DNA of 25,355 nt from positions 1-25,355 of IMG/VR virus record IMGVR_UViG_3300006071_000087, one strand, 5' to 3'. Below are positions 11,739-25,355 of this stretch, one piece after another. The notes under the pieces are model-generated. The model had not been told where the DNA came from. It ran no database searches and saw only the letters and a program-made list of their open reading frames with translations. This DNA is from a virus. The position numbers and the translations under genes were made by a program. Each line of letters opens with the position of its first letter. The stretch's first letter is position 1.

Positions 11739-11752
11739 AAAGTATAGGATTA

Positions 11753-11829
11753 CTAAATAGACATGTCCGTCACGAGGTGCGAACTCTACGGACTCTAACA
11801 CTTTTAGGGAGTGCCAGCATGTCTATTTA
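11753..11829 (+). promoter_or_regulatory. Structured leader of homing endonuclease, copy 2, with CTAAATAG
   Basis: Proposed pairing: a perfect 12-bp outer stem, TAAATAGACATG (11754-11765) with CATGTCTATTTA (11818-11829); P2 GTCCGT (11765-11770) with ACGGAC (11788-11793); P3 GAG (11774-11776) with CTC (11784-11786); CTAA (11795-11798) with TTAG (11804-11807); CACT (11799-11802) with AGTG (11810-11813). The endonuclease ATG (11819) is buried in the outer stem and the AGGGAG ribosome site is in the overlapping hairpins. Compared with copies 1 and 3, several pairs change on both sides. Late transcription from CTAAATAG would leave out the 5' arm and expose the start. Confidence 0.75.
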
Positions 11830-12412
11830 TACATCCTCAAATCAACCTCCAGGTTTCTACATTTATGCTTATTTGCGTAAAGATGAACTTACACCTTATT
11901 ATATTGGTAAGGGAAAAGGTCGCAGAGCGTGGGAGAAACACAAATCTCATTCCATTATAAGGCCTACTGATAAAAATAGAATTGTTATAATGGAGTCCAA
12001 TCTAACAGACCTCGGTGCTCTTGCTTTAGAAAGATTCTATATTCGTTGGTATGGTCGTAAAGACCTTAATACCGGCATTCTACATAATAGAACCGATGGT
12101 GGTGAAGGTAACACCGGTTTGATAATGGAATATACAGAAGAAAGAAATAAAAAAGTTTCCGAAGCACAGAGAGCATCTTGGGCCAGAAACAGAAATAAAA
12201 GAATACAAGCATCAAAAGGAAGAACATGGAAACTTTCAGAAGAAAAAAAAGCGATTGTCGCTGCTGCTAACATAACAAAATTTACCAGTGAAACAGCAAA
12301 AGTTTGTCAAGACACTATCTGGATAAATGATGGTGTTATAAGCAAGAGAATAAAAGAAACAGATGACATACCATCCGGGTTTGTCAAAGGAAGAATATAT
12401 AAGAGGAAGTAA
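11819..12412 (+). CDS. Free-standing GIY-YIG homing endonuclease
   Basis: The 197-residue protein starts MSIYTSS and carries GIY-YIG motifs [10 protein letters not shown] (about 13-22) and PYYIGKG, a conserved Arg, and the [16 protein letters not shown] helix. This is nearly the same catalytic domain as the enzyme at 720. The C-terminus differs: it ends with [11 protein letters not shown]...IPSGFVKGR, a module common at the ends of phage homing endonucleases. The shared catalytic domain and leader with a different DNA-binding tail suggest related enzymes retargeted by tail exchange. It lies between thyX and the RNR gene, and its last codons hold the ribosome site (AGAGGAAG) for the RNR. Confidence 0.92.
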
Positions 12413-12414
12413 TA

Positions 12415-14307
12415 ATGGAATCACTTTACCAGGAATTCATCTATAAATCCAGATATGCTCGTTATGTACCAGAACTAAACCGTCGAGAAAATTGGGAGGA
12501 AACCGTTGAACGTTATATTACCTTTATGTCTAATCACCTCGCCGATACTTATAACTTTGATATGGCACCTTATCGTGAAGAGATAAAAGATTACATTATC
12601 AAACTAAAAGTTATGCCATCTATGCGGTCCCTTATGACTGCTGGTAAGGCATTAGAGCGAGACCACACATGTGGTTATAACTGTTCATTTCTAACTATTG
12701 ATGACCCTAAGGCCTTTGATGAGGCCATGTTCATTCTACTATGTGGAACAGGTGTTGGTTTCTCCGTTGAGCGCCAGTTCATTAATCAGTTGCCAGAGAT
12801 TCCGGAGAAGATGTATGACTCCGATACCACCATTTCCGTGAGAGATAGCAAAGAAGGTTGGGCTAAGGCTCTACGTATGCTTATTGCTCTCCTATACACA
12901 GGTGAGATTCCAAAGTGGGACCTAACCAAGGTGCGTCCTGCTGGTGCTCCGTTGAAGACCTTTGGTGGTCGTTCATCTGGCCCAGGTCCTCTAAATGATC
13001 TATTCAAGTTTGTTGTAAAAGTATTCCGTAATGCTCATGGTCGTCGCCTGACTTCCATTGAGTGTCATGATATAATGTGTAAGATTGGTGAGGTTGTTGT
13101 AGTTGGCGGTGTCCGTCGTTCTGCTATGATTTCTCTATCTAACCTATCCGATGACCGTATGCGTCACGCCAAGGCGGGTGCGTGGTGGGAAGCAAACCCA
13201 CAACGGGCATTGTCAAACAACTCGGCCGTCTATAATGAGAAACCAGAGATTGGATCTTTCATGTCCGAGTGGTTATCATTATATGAATCCAAGTCAGGCG
13301 AGAGAGGTTTATTCAGTCGTGAAGCATGTCAAAAAATCGCTGCGAGAAATGGCAGACGAAATCCAGACCAAGCATTTGGAACCAATCCGTGTTCGGAGAT
13401 CATCCTTAGACCATATGGCTTTTGCAACCTTACTGAAGTTGTCCTGCGGTCAGATGACACGATGGAAACTATTAGAGATAAAGTTAAGATTGCAACTATC
13501 CTCGGTACTTTTCAATCTACTCTTACGGATTTTCCCTACCTGAGAAAAGTTTGGAAGAAGAACGCCGAAGAAGAACGCCTACTTGGTGTATCACTTACAG
13601 GCATCTATGACTCCAAGTTGTTTAACAATCCACATGATAAAGAGATTAAGGCACGCCTTGCTTCTCTTCGTGACTATGCTGTTGAGGTGAATAATGGACT
13701 GGCTGAAAAACTTGGTATTAATCCTGCCGCTGCTATTACTTGTGTCAAGCCTTCTGGCACAGTATCGCAACTATGCGACTCCGCGTCTGGTATTCATCCA
13801 CGGCATTCTAATTATTATATCCGTCGTGTTCGGGCTGATAATAAAGATCCTCTAACAAAGTTTATGAAAGAAAAGGGTGTGCCTTGGGAACCAGATGTTA
13901 TGAAGCCCGACTCCACAACAGTATTCTCCTTCCCACAGAAAGCACCAAAAGGTGCCGTTGTTCGTGACGATATCAACGCTATTAGTCATCTAGAACTATG
14001 GGCGGTGTATCAGGAAAGTTGGGCGGAACACAAGCCATCAGTCACTATCAATGTTCGTGAGGACGAATGGATGAAGGTCGGTGCCTGGGTTTACGACCAC
14101 TTTGATGAGATGTCCGGCGTATCGTTCCTACCTTACGATGGTGGTAGCTATCGGCAAGCACCTTATGAGGCCATAACCAAAGACCTTTATGATGCTATGC
14201 TGCCTTCTATTCCAACACATCTTGACTGGGATAGTTTGGTTGAGATGGAAGACAATGTTGAAGGGGTGCAGACACTAGCTTGCACAAGTGGCACATGCGA
14301 AATCTAA
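12415..14307 (+). CDS. nrdJ: Adenosylcobalamin-dependent (class II) ribonucleotide reductase
   Basis: The 630-residue protein matches monomeric RTPR-type class II reductases. NPCSEI places the thiyl-radical Cys at C326. C337 lies 11 residues later, the same spacing as C408/C419 of the Lactobacillus enzyme. The C-terminal shuttle pair C623-x4-C628 ends the protein, as C731/C736 does there. CGYNC at 86-90 holds the other likely redox Cys. GVGFSVERQ and VKPSGTVSQL are family motifs. It is shorter than the 739-residue Lactobacillus protein. It reduces ribonucleotides using host B12. The glutaredoxin at 16742 could reduce its cysteines. The start depends on a ribosome site inside the homing endonuclease. 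Confidence 0.95.
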   Translation: MESLYQEFIYKSRYARYVPELNRRENWEETVERYITFMSNHLADTYNFDMAPYREEIKDYIIKLKVMPSMRSLMTAGKALERDHTCGYNCSFLTIDDPKAFDEAMFILLCGTGVGFSVERQFINQLPEIPEKMYDSDTTISVRDSKEGWAKALRMLIALLYTGEIPKWDLTKVRPAGAPLKTFGGRSSGPGPLNDLFKFVVKVFRNAHGRRLTSIECHDIMCKIGEVVVVGGVRRSAMISLSNLSDDRMRHAKAGAWWEANPQRALSNNSAVYNEKPEIGSFMSEWLSLYESKSGERGLFSREACQKIAARNGRRNPDQAFGTNPCSEIILRPYGFCNLTEVVLRSDDTMETIRDKVKIATILGTFQSTLTDFPYLRKVWKKNAEEERLLGVSLTGIYDSKLFNNPHDKEIKARLASLRDYAVEVNNGLAEKLGINPAAAITCVKPSGTVSQLCDSASGIHPRHSNYYIRRVRADNKDPLTKFMKEKGVPWEPDVMKPDSTTVFSFPQKAPKGAVVRDDINAISHLELWAVYQESWAEHKPSVTINVREDEWMKVGAWVYDHFDEMSGVSFLPYDGGSYRQAPYEAITKDLYDAMLPSIPTHLDWDSLVEMEDNVEGVQTLACTSGTCEI

Positions 14308-14756
14308 TCCTCGCCTTTCTCCTTGTCACCACACCAGCAATGGCACTTGATCCTTTGCTGCCAAACCATCAACTAACACCAGGCGCAACTCTTCCTGTAA
14401 CAGAGAAAGAGGTTTGCGTTCCTGGTTATGCTGGTCGTGTCAGGAATGTTCCACAGAATGTAAAGAATAAGGCATATCAGATATATGGTATTACATCTCG
14501 CAAACCAGGTCAGTATGAGATAGACCACCTAATCAGTTTACAGTTAGGTGGTTCTAATGAAATCAGTAATCTTTGGCCACAGTCATATAAAACTTTACCA
14601 TGGAATGCCCATGTGAAAGATGAACTTGAAAATAAGCTACATAGTTTAGTATGTAGTGGTAAGATGACATTAAAAGAGGCACAGGATAAGATTTCAGGCG
14701 ACTGGACTAAATCTTACTGTGAAGTTTTTGGTATAACTAACTGTAATGGAGACTGA
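14295..14756 (+). CDS. Exported HNH nuclease-like protein
   Basis: The 153-residue protein begins with a clear signal peptide, MRNLILAFLLVTTPAMA, cleavable after AMA at about 17. The mature part has an HNH core: EIDHLISLQLGG (D77, H78) and SNEISNLWPQ (N92). Four Cys (C41, C120, C142, C150) could form disulfides, which suits the periplasm. The gene overlaps the RNR end, and the ATG at 14295 is preferred over an upstream TTG because it gives a proper signal peptide. Such a nuclease could degrade incoming DNA (superinfection exclusion) or host DNA at lysis. Both roles are inference. It pairs with the next exported protein. Confidence 0.85.
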   Translation: MRNLILAFLLVTTPAMALDPLLPNHQLTPGATLPVTEKEVCVPGYAGRVRNVPQNVKNKAYQIYGITSRKPGQYEIDHLISLQLGGSNEISNLWPQSYKTLPWNAHVKDELENKLHSLVCSGKMTLKEAQDKISGDWTKSYCEVFGITNCNGD

Positions 14757-14757
14757 T

Positions 14758-15159
14758 GTGAAGAAACTACTCGTTGCAATGATGCTACTTACTACACCAG
14801 CAATGGCACAAACTGATATAACTATCAGCAAGAGACACCAGATGATGCAGGTTGATACTGATGAAGGTTCATATCAGTGGCCAGTATCAACTGCACGAAA
14901 AGGATACTATACACCAAATGGAACTTTTTACCCATATTCACTCCAGCCTATGCACTACAGCAAAAAGTATGATAATGCTCCTATGCCTCATTCTATCTTT
15001 TTCAGTGGTGGGTATGCTATTCATGCTACGCCTCATGTGGGTGCTTTGGGTCGTCCTGCTAGTCACGGTTGTGTCCGTCTATCGCCTGCTCATGCGGCCA
15101 TTTTATATGATATAGTTAAACATGACCGTGAAGGTACAACAATAAGAATTATAAACTAA
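14758..15159 (+). CDS. Exported L,D-transpeptidase (YkuD family)
   Basis: The 133-residue protein has the YkuD catalytic signature IHATPHVGALGRPASHGCVRL, with nucleophile C105 and H103. A signal peptide MKKLLVAMMLLTTPAMA precedes it. The GTG start at 14758 is preferred over the ATG at 14746 because GGAG lies 6-7 nt upstream and it gives the standard signal peptide. L,D-transpeptidases make 3-3 cross-links or attach proteins to peptidoglycan in the periplasm. In a phage this could remodel the wall against rival phages or premature lysis, but that is inference. Its leader shares LLxTTPAMA with the HNH protein just upstream. Confidence 0.92.
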   Translation: MKKLLVAMMLLTTPAMAQTDITISKRHQMMQVDTDEGSYQWPVSTARKGYYTPNGTFYPYSLQPMHYSKKYDNAPMPHSIFFSGGYAIHATPHVGALGRPASHGCVRLSPAHAAILYDIVKHDREGTTIRIIN

Positions 15160-15408: not shown

Positions 15409-15801
15409 ATGTGGTTATACAACAATACACCCTTTGAAGAAATACCCGATGGTTATGTAGCCTTTGTTTACCTTATCACAAACGAGGTAACAGGTCGTAA
15501 ATATATCGGAAAGAAACTGTTTAAGTTCACCCGCTCTACCAAACGAAAAGGTAAGCGGGTGAAGAAACAGGTTGACTCCGACTGGTTAGATTATTATGGT
15601 TCTAACAAAGAACTGAATGAACATGTGGATCTATACGGCAAAGACAAGTTCAAACGAGAAATCCTATATCTTTGTAAGTCTAAAGGCGAGGCTTCATACC
15701 TTGAGGCCAAAGAACAGTTTGCCAGAGATGCCTTGATGACCGAAGATTACTATAATACATGGATCATGGTACGAGTAAGAAAGTCCCATATCAAAAAGTG
15801 A
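15409..15801 (+). CDS. SegE-like GIY-YIG nuclease-family protein
   Basis: The 130-residue protein has a GIY-YIG pattern VAFVYLITNEVTGRKYIGKKL (residues about 18-38). Basic residues (RSTKRKGKRVKK), DWLDYYGSN and a later Glu (YLEAKEQFARDA) follow. This compact form is typical of the SegE-like proteins common in T4-superfamily phages and is unlike the two long homing endonucleases in this window. It lacks the structured leader. A small perfect inverted repeat, ACCTA-CA-TAGGT at 15395-15406, covers the ribosome site. It may be a structure-specific or a homing nuclease. Confidence 0.83.
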   Translation: MWLYNNTPFEEIPDGYVAFVYLITNEVTGRKYIGKKLFKFTRSTKRKGKRVKKQVDSDWLDYYGSNKELNEHVDLYGKDKFKREILYLCKSKGEASYLEAKEQFARDALMTEDYYNTWIMVRVRKSHIKK

Positions 15802-22638: not shown

Positions 22639-22714
22639 CTAAATAGTCATGTAGGTCGCGGTTGGGGAACCCACCTACTCTAATGCTTTAGAGGAGCACC
22701 AGCATGACTATTTA
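22639..22714 (+). promoter_or_regulatory. Structured leader of homing endonuclease, copy 3 (orphaned)
   Basis: Proposed pairing: a perfect 12-bp outer stem, TAAATAGTCATG (22640-22651) with CATGACTATTTA (22703-22714); P2 GTAGGT (22651-22656) with ACCTAC (22673-22678); P3 GGTT (22660-22663) with AACC (22668-22671); CTAA (22680-22683) with TTAG (22688-22691); TGCT (22684-22687) with AGCA (22695-22698). Nearly every base that differs from copy 2 inside the stems is matched by a partner change. The element is intact, but the gene it serves is reduced to 12 codons. Confidence 0.72.
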
Positions 22715-22742
22715 TCCATCCAATTTCTATATCTATTTGTAA
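22704..22742 (+). pseudogene. Remnant of a GIY-YIG homing endonuclease (first 12 codons)
   Basis: The ATG sits in the leader exactly where the two intact endonucleases start. It encodes MTIYPSNFYIYL then TAA, which aligns with MSIYTSS...FYIYAYL at 11819 and [15 protein letters not shown] at 720. The sequence then stops matching and runs directly into the terminator of the early region. This indicates that the rest of the gene was deleted, leaving the 5' leader. Confidence 0.72.
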
Positions 22743-22747
22743 ACGAG

Positions 22748-22806
22748 GGTATGTAAACGACGGCCAGGGTGCGACATCCTGTCGCAGTTGTTTACATACC
22801 TTTTTT
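22748..22806 (+). terminator. Rho-independent terminator with internal palindrome, early cassette 1
   Basis: GGTATGTAAAC (22748-22758) pairs perfectly with GTTTACATACC (22790-22800) and is followed by six T (22801-22806). Nested inside is TGCGACA-TCC-TGTCGCA (22770-22786). It ends transcription from the RNase H side. The inner palindrome recurs at 24599 and 25270 at a fixed distance from a promoter, so it may also be a protein-binding site. The 22743-22842 interval contains only this cassette and no gene. Confidence 0.88.
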
Positions 22807-22807
22807 A

Positions 22808-22836
22808 TTGACTATTCCGTTCCTTAGTGCTATTAT
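22808..22836 (+). promoter_or_regulatory. Early sigma70 promoter, cassette 1
   Basis: TTGACT (22808-22813), a 17-bp spacer containing CCGTTCCTT, and TATTAT (22831-22836). Transcription should start about 22843, which is the first base of the next ATG, so the message may be leaderless. The -35 begins 21 bp after the palindrome, as in the two other cassettes. Confidence 0.82.
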
Positions 22837-22842
22837 ACGTCC

Positions 22843-23169
22843 ATGATGAAAACACAAAAGCGGAAATCACGGTCTGATCGTAAACACCTTGTTTACAGTC
22901 TGTCTGTAAACGGACAGGAATACATTGGTGTGACCTTTGTCGAACGGTCGGCAGTGAAGAAATCCCTAACCAGAAGGTGGCAGAAACATGTCCGACGGGC
23001 CCTTACAGAAAACAAAAACTGGAAGCTCTGTGTTGCTATACGTAAATATGGCGCTGATGCCTTTGACGTTACTGTATTGGACGTGGTCCGCGGTAAGTCC
23101 GCTGCTCATACCTTAGAACGTGAACTAATCAAATCCCGCAAACCTAAACTTAACACGGATGTAAGATAA
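22843..23169 (+). CDS. Small GIY-YIG nuclease-like protein, possibly leaderless
   Basis: The 108-residue protein has HLVYSLSVNGQEYIGVTF (residues about 17-34) as the GIY-YIG strands, the basic helix SLTRRWQKHVRRAL, and AHTLERELIKSRKP with the expected Glu. It is short, without the NUMOD-type tail of the two larger endonucleases. No ribosome site exists between the -10 box (22831-22836) and the ATG, and the predicted +1 coincides with the start codon, implying leaderless translation. It overlaps the next gene by one base (TAATG) and heads the early operon. Confidence 0.8.
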   Translation: MMKTQKRKSRSDRKHLVYSLSVNGQEYIGVTFVERSAVKKSLTRRWQKHVRRALTENKNWKLCVAIRKYGADAFDVTVLDVVRGKSAAHTLERELIKSRKPKLNTDVR

Positions 23170-24521: not shown

Positions 24522-24636
24522 TCCTGTTGCCAAGGCACTCCGCAATCCTGTATGTAAACAGCGGATTGTCAACAGCAAGAAGGTTTACAATCGCAAGGTG
24601 CGACATCCTGTCGCATCTGTTGACATACGATTTTGA
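24466..24636 (+). CDS. Small basic protein overlapping the acidic gene and the next cassette (DUF7230-like)
   Basis: The 56-residue basic protein contains NPVAKALRNPVCKQRIVNSKKVYNRK. I recognise this pattern as widespread in small phage proteins (I recall DUF7230). GAGGAGGAAG lies ideally upstream. It overlaps the acidic gene by 56 nt in another frame. Its last codons run through the palindrome (GTG CGA CAT CCT GTC GCA) almost to the -35 box, so the regulatory hairpin is translated. Confidence 0.75.
   Translation: MTANRTKRKNGMTLIQTVNPVAKALRNPVCKQRIVNSKKVYNRKVRHPVASVDIRF
24550..24628 (+). terminator. Nested hairpins with palindrome, early cassette 2
   Basis: GTATGTAAACA (24550-24560) pairs with TGTTGACATAC (24618-24628) with one mismatch. 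GATTGTCAAC (24564-24573) pairs with GTTTACAATC (24583-24592) with one mismatch. TGCGACA-TCC-TGTCGCA lies at 24599-24615. Only four T follow (24631-24634). This resembles cassette 1 but is weaker as a terminator, and its 5' part is coding. The conserved part is the inner palindrome and its spacing to the promoter. Confidence 0.6.
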
Positions 24637-24665
24637 TTGACTGTTCCGTCCGTTTATGCTATTAT
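24637..24665 (+). promoter_or_regulatory. Early sigma70 promoter, cassette 2
   Basis: TTGACT (24637-24642), a 17-bp spacer with CCGTCCGTT, and TATTAT (24660-24665). The -35 starts 21 bp after the palindrome. A leader of about 21 nt with GAGAGGATAG leads to the next ATG, so here a normal ribosome site is used. Confidence 0.82.
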
Positions 24666-25070: not shown

Positions 25071-25268
25071 ATGTCTAGAATGTCCGACCTTGCTTTGGAA
25101 GTAGATGAGTTGGTGGTTCAGGCCATCGAATACGGTGCCCAGACGGAACAGCAAGTCCAGACGTATGTAAACGACCGTCTGGCGTTGACAATCCCTATAG
25201 AGCAAATCAATCGTATTATAGACGATTTCTATAGAGAGGATTTCTATTGTCAACACCACAACCTATAG
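25071..25268 (+). CDS. Small early protein
   Basis: The 65-residue helical, acidic protein contains LALEVDELVVQAIEYGAQTEQQVQTYVNDRLAL and IDDFYREDFYC. GAGGG precedes the ATG. It is followed at once by the third palindrome. No family is recognised. Confidence 0.74.
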   Translation: MSRMSDLALEVDELVVQAIEYGAQTEQQVQTYVNDRLALTIPIEQINRIIDDFYREDFYCQHHNL

Positions 25269-25269
25269 G

Positions 25270-25286
25270 TGCGACAACCTGTCGCA
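25270..25286 (+). promoter_or_regulatory. Palindrome TGCGACA-ACC-TGTCGCA, early cassette 3
   Basis: The same 7+3+7 inverted repeat as at 22770 and 24599, differing only in the first loop base (ACC for TCC). It is followed by TGTTTACAAACGATTTT. Here no long outer stem or T run forms a convincing terminator, so a DNA-binding or RNA-hairpin role is more likely than termination alone. Confidence 0.6.
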
Positions 25287-25307
25287 TGTGTTTACAAACG
25301 ATTTTGG

Positions 25308-25335
25308 TTGCCATATCCGTCCGTTGTGTTATAAT
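25308..25335 (+). promoter_or_regulatory. Early sigma70 promoter, cassette 3
   Basis: TTGCCA (25308-25313), a 16-bp spacer with CCGTCCGTT, and a perfect TATAAT (25330-25335). The -35 starts 21 bp after the palindrome. The gene it drives lies beyond the window end. Confidence 0.78.
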
Positions 25336-25355
25336 GTCCGTATTAAATGAGAAAT

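Follow-up and report, generated by a model that had tools for sequence, protein, structure and literature searches.

A late promoter and structured leader probably form a portable cassette of homing endonuclease genes in uncultured phages

The window, the whole 25,355-nucleotide stretch analyzed here (IMG/VR record IMGVR_UViG_3300006071_000087), comes from an uncultured phage with an uncultured host. Its primase is T4-like, and the best cultured matches are Synechococcus T4-like phages, at about 44%. The window contains three repeated leaders on the plus strand, at positions 653–732 (copy 1), 11753–11830 (copy 2), and 22639–22715 (copy 3). Each leader begins a GIY-YIG nuclease, of which copy 3 retains only MTIYPSNFYIYL*. 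In copy 2, the T4-type late box CTAAATA (11753–11759; ACTAAATA at 11752–11759) also forms the 5′ part of an outer stem, denoted as P1. The 5′ arm of this stem, TAAATAGACATG (11754–11765), pairs over 12 bp with the 3′ arm, CATGTCTATTTA (11818–11829), which comprises the ATG and codons 2–4 (MSIY) and reads ATAAATA on the minus strand. Two hairpins lie between the arms. The first, P2 (11765–11793), consists of GTCCGT/ACGGAC, a CAC bulge, and an apical stem, and is supported by covariation. The second, P3 (11799–11813; CACT/AGTG), contains the Shine-Dalgarno sequence GGGAG at 11807–11811. The match to the covariance model described below spans 11765–11821 with a score of 62 bits. The downstream GIY-YIG homing endonuclease of 197 amino acids (11819–12412) is flanked by thyX and a B12-type ribonucleotide reductase gene.

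Copy 3 also has a 12 bp outer stem, formed by TAAATAGTCATG (22640–22651) and CATGACTATTTA (22703–22714), with the late box CTAAATA at 22639–22645. The P2, P3, and ATG segment (22651–22706) scores 71.1 bits, and the nuclease remnant occupies 22704–22742; elsewhere, an intact nuclease lies behind the same leader (L043). The earlier note had placed the ATG and the next three codons in the 3′ arm of copies 2 and 3, and the sequence confirms this. The outer stems of these two copies differ by a single compensatory swap, in which one A-U pair is exchanged for U-A. Copy 1 has the same box (CTAAATA, 654–660) and an identical 3′ end, but the match between its arms, TAAATAG/CTATTTA, extends over only 7 bp, with a predicted P1 probability of 0.0. 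Its P2, P3, and ATG segment (665–722) scores 71.9 bits, and the GIY-YIG homing endonuclease gene runs from 720 to 1271. At this copy, CTAAATAG (653–661) also provides the upstream gene with its TAG stop. The box holds stops in two frames (TAA and TAG), so an insertion can restore the end of a reading frame. The stop of the copy 1 nuclease overlaps the ATG of the next gene (ATGA, 1268–1271), and this overlap replaces the one between the upstream and downstream genes in relatives with an empty site (L515–L517).

Several other features of the window were noted. Two more small GIY-YIG-like proteins (22843–23169 and 15409–15801) are encoded without this leader. The hairpin GTGCGACATCCTGTCGCA occurs in three copies that are 61–83% similar (22765–22836, 24594–24665, and 25265–25336), each followed by a sigma-70-like promoter (TTGAC..TATTAT/TATAAT), and these repeats are probably early promoters of the phage. 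A repeat in two adjacent ORFs (14301–14346 and 14764–14809) encodes a signal peptide-like N-terminus (LL.TTPAMA).

The leader belongs to a large family. A search of IMG/VR with a pattern joining the box, the leader, and the 3′ arm yielded 86 exact matches, so the repeats in the window are not due to chance. Patterns in which the arms were left free yielded at least 120 matches each in the same database. Extraction from these scans, together with a covariance model, gave at least 203 non-redundant matches, three of which (L295, L555, and L593) are plainly chance. The covariance model R1, built from P2, P3, and the ATG alone, without the box or the 3′ arm, assigns 62–72 bits to the window copies. 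Of 18 large phage contigs, 17 contain leaders detected by this model, 68 in total. Altogether, about 200 non-redundant copies or more are present in uncultured phages, with up to 13 per contig. Rfam searches at gathering and relaxed scores returned nothing in the window, the best E value in the leader region being 8. Searching 50,697 records of cultured phages by blastn, with the window leader and with a consensus of the family, gave only weak fragments (E ≥ 5), and the two that were inspected are not leaders. Pattern matches in bacterial genomes are due to chance and score at most 25 bits, compared with 62–72 in the window; L550, a non-metagenome record, is likewise a chance match. In a literature search, mostly outside subscription journals, no report of a leader common to several nucleases was found.

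The consensus begins with the box (ATAAATA or CTAAATA) and a 5 nt gap, followed by P2 (GUAGGU CRC GGnn..nnCC C ACCUAC). It continues with a UCUAA linker, P3 (YRCU..AAGG AGYR), in which the Shine-Dalgarno sequence is located, YCAGC, and the start segment (AUG NNU AUU UAU). Two-sided changes were found in the alignment A1 at five of the six P2a pairs, all four P2b pairs, and all four P3 pairs, amounting to 13 of 14. The whole structure contains 180 two-sided cells, compared with 52 in shuffles, and 92.5% of its cells are paired, compared with 75% in shuffles. This signal is lost when the pairing partners are slid along the sequence. The P2 pairs include all four Watson-Crick types, and the unpaired CRC, UCUAA, and CAGC are nearly fixed. 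The fixed single-stranded linker UCUAA(C/U) (e.g., 11794–11798) is similar to the UAAC loop in the RNA operator of T4 gp43, a similarity that we regard as a lead only. RegB and RegA sites were considered on the basis of the literature; the Shine-Dalgarno sequence is GGAG, but the leader fits neither the 3′ context of RegB sites nor the RegA operator. Inspection by eye for a self-cleaving ribozyme revealed no known core. The earlier note had missed three points: the conserved part is this two-hairpin RNA between the arms, the family is very large, and the 12 bp stem is exceptional.

An alternative explanation would be an ordinary late promoter and Shine-Dalgarno sequence, with the likeness of the RNAs reflecting the descent of one mobile gene behind a functionless leader. 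Homing spreads genes quickly, and within a lineage the copies are identical over long flanking stretches. A leader that merely hitch-hikes would look portable too. However, the leader is common to nucleases of unrelated families, and the compensatory changes in P2, together with the nearly fixed CRC, UCUAA, and CAGC, argue against a functionless leader. We consider this explanation highly improbable.

The proteins encoded downstream link the leader to homing. Comparison of 146 of them with PHROG and Pfam assigned most to homing, GIY-YIG, HNH, or NUMOD3 families, and the ORFs behind the leaders found by R1 in the large contigs also look like homing endonucleases. At an empty site (L430), thyX and the reductase gene meet at the junction TAAGAGGAAAAACATG, which is without the box. 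The site of copy 1 is a direct stop/start junction without the box in L515–517 and L528–530, and is occupied by other cassettes in L519 and L520. Since the empty sites lack both box and leader, the box, leader, and nuclease move as a unit. In addition, L511–513 have the same leader at the copy 1 site but a nuclease that differs from that in L509, indicating that nucleases are exchangeable behind the leader. The leader type tracks the genome (1 of 300 shuffles) more closely than the nuclease class (35 of 300). In L429 (3235–3340), thyX is followed by the stretch TTTATAAAATGGGGTCACGG, a probable decayed cassette, and then by the RBS region of the reductase gene.

A T4-type (gp55) late promoter directs initiation 6 nt past its box and requires gp55, gp33, and gp45. 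Of 1481 other ORFs in these phages, 19.2% are preceded within 60 nt by [AC]TAAATA on their own strand, compared with 5.4% for the reverse strand. CTAAATA is the published late consensus of the T4-like phage Aeh1, positioned at −12, while T4 late boxes span −13 to −6 (PMC1524935). The consensus and the strand bias agree with the proposal in the earlier note that a late-box variant lies in the 5′ arm of the 12 bp stem in copies 2 and 3. The box adjoins the leader in 179 of the 203 matches listed and lies up to 70 nt away from it in 18 further ones. Among the 179 copies listed, the box types are GATAAATA (53), TATAAATA (52), ACTAAATA (23), and others. In nearly all copies, the gap between the box and P2 measures 3–6 nt; it is 5 nt in 116 of the matches listed, 3 nt in 38, and 4 nt in 17. 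With a T4 box at −13 to −6, a 5 nt gap makes the first base of P2 the +1 position, which in copy 2 is the predicted late start site, 11765. A late transcript starting there, or at 22651 in copy 3, would lack the 5′ arm, as had been suggested; these start sites and the late timing are predicted from the box consensus. If the −6 rule were strict, many of the 38 copies with a 3 nt gap would start inside P2. In six copies (L201, L219, L236, L278, L300, and L599), the late box lies 24–40 nt further upstream, with an extra hairpin of variable sequence before P2. In several far-box copies, the added hairpin starts about 3–5 nt past the box, and therefore these late RNAs, too, would seem to have a hairpin at their 5′ end.

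The outer stem had originally been read as a portable timing switch, in which the AUG is hidden in early or middle read-through RNA and the late RNA escapes, as described for T4 gene e and I-TevI; the literature agrees with these precedents (PMC2988022, PMC3014915). Folding predictions for copies 2 and 3 are in line with such hiding. The P1 probability is 0.98 in copy 2 and 0.95 in copy 3, and the predicted AUG accessibility is 0.01 and 0.00 in the read-through RNA and rises in the late RNA to 0.23 and 0.82, respectively. The box is complementary to the 3′ arm in most copies of the family. Co-adaptation of the arms is weak: the native arm duplex averages −4.04, compared with −3.75 after permutation (p = 0.001 overall; p = 0.044 within P2 types), with descent incompletely corrected. 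In scans leaving both arms free, the g1-N2 pairing is found in 44 cases against 34.5 expected (p = 0.02). As a general switch, however, P1 fits the family poorly. Its probability exceeds 0.5 in only 20% of 114 folded copies, and the mean AUG accessibility is 0.36 in read-through RNA and 0.39 in late RNA. Unlike the inner hairpins, the seven A-U pairs that make up P1 in the family hardly vary; four of the seven never do, and only a single cell has a two-sided change. In the window, the compensatory changes of the outer stem amount to the one swap between copies 2 and 3. The central mismatches TACTTAT, TATATAT, and TATCTAT, present in 24 of the 179 copies listed, are uncompensated. The AUG itself is seldom paired, with a C facing its G in three of 112 copies. 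The arm duplex of copies 2 and 3 (−11.1 kcal/mol) is unique in strength; the median of the 197 distinct arm pairs to which it was compared is −3.6, and none of them is as strong. Furthermore, the arm strength is equal whether the upstream gene lies on the same strand (n = 38) or is divergent (n = 58; p = 0.64), which weighs against a switch because the switch model needs read-through. Near-box-less copies that keep the 3′ arm were considered as a refutation of P1 and dropped, as most have a box further upstream.

These findings make it unlikely that P1 serves as a timing switch throughout the family, and the promoter itself accounts better for the timing. The portable late element of homing nucleases survives from the earlier proposal, while AUG hiding finds no support as the family-wide mechanism. 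Burial of the start in read-through RNA is predicted for copies 2 and 3 and finds no counterpart in copy 1 or in the family mean. For the lineage represented by copies 2 and 3, we put start-codon hiding at slightly below an even chance.

The start segment AUG-NNU-AUU-UAU raises a separate question. The third base of codon 2 is U in 126 of 129 copies (baseline 0.335), although the encoded amino acid varies, and isoleucine is encoded by AUU in 107 of 111 copies (baseline 0.40). The start segment is thus conserved as nucleotides and not as protein, and the conservation of TATTTAT in the coding start goes beyond what the promoter and the leader explain. It could be caused by pairing with the box, by a late box on the minus strand, or by an initiation signal. 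The second of these would make the 3′ arm a minus-strand late promoter (ATAAATANNCAT followed by G), with antisense RNA over the leader limiting the nuclease and the inverted repeat representing two convergent promoters. Suitable boxes are found on the minus strand of the window, namely TATAAATA at 11831, GATAAATA at 22716, and AATAAATA at 732, each 5 nt before a G, and TATTTAT is kept as nucleotides even where the near box is absent. Nevertheless, antisense transcription has no independent sign, the 3′ arm is more variable than the plus-strand box, and codon 5 shows no push toward the best −13 base. Accordingly, we regard convergent promoters as very improbable.

Computation has established the anatomy, covariation, and spread of the element, its association with GIY-YIG/HNH nucleases, and the lack of both box and leader at empty sites. 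Together, these results point to a portable late promoter and structured leader cassette for homing endonuclease genes, which we consider the likely explanation with good confidence. In the proposed mechanism, the gp55-type late box [AC]TAAATA would act as the promoter, giving the nuclease its own late message wherever it is inserted. P2 would provide this message with a 5′-terminal hairpin, and P3 would present the Shine-Dalgarno sequence. In the lineage of copies 2 and 3, whose arms are extended to 12 bp, read-through RNA may well bury the AUG too, as in T4 I-TevI and gene e; this burial would be an added layer in that lineage and not the common function. A broader reading seems less likely than not: P2–P3 may be a new RNA family serving as a common docking and control module, behind which recombination swaps nucleases of unrelated folds. 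All the homing nucleases of a genome might then be controlled together by a factor of the phage or host that reads the fixed CRC bulge, UCUAA, and CAGCAUG.

Homing nucleases need to be expressed wherever they are inserted without harming the phage, and T4 solves this problem gene by gene. A promoter and leader cassette shared by both major nuclease families, with up to 13 copies per phage, would solve it in a general way. Such a cassette would also mark these elements for finding and dating in uncultured phages, and the leader offers a well-defined structured RNA with a testable function.

In T4, I-TevI, I-TevII, I-TevIII, and segB, like mobE of Aeh1, have structures that sequester the RBS, with the promoter placed so that the late RNA escapes (PMC2988022, PMC3014915). 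The leader resembles this group in that homing genes of T4-like phages carry a late promoter within a 5′ arm over the start, and the late RNA would be without this arm. In the I-TevI group, however, each hairpin is gene-specific and the RBS is sequestered, whereas in the present family many GIY-YIG and HNH nucleases share one type of leader, the Shine-Dalgarno sequence has a small hairpin of its own, and most copies have a weak outer stem. The late promoter of T4 gene e lies in the 5′ part of an inhibitory structure, and its read-through RNA is nearly silent (PMC3014915). Gene e and soc share with the leader an inhibitory RNA structure at the start, but they are fixed, non-mobile genes, and the conserved P2 and P3 are absent. 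In Aeromonas phage 25, seg43(25) has a stable, non-sequestering hairpin just upstream of the RBS, with a Seg-type nuclease downstream (PMC2988022); the likeness to the leader is by description, and seg43(25) is a single case. Seven free-standing T4-type nucleases, including mobE, have been described as promoter-less cassettes (PMC2988022). The free-standing seg and mob genes of T4 are nuclease genes located between phage genes, as in the present case, but here a promoter and leader accompany the gene.
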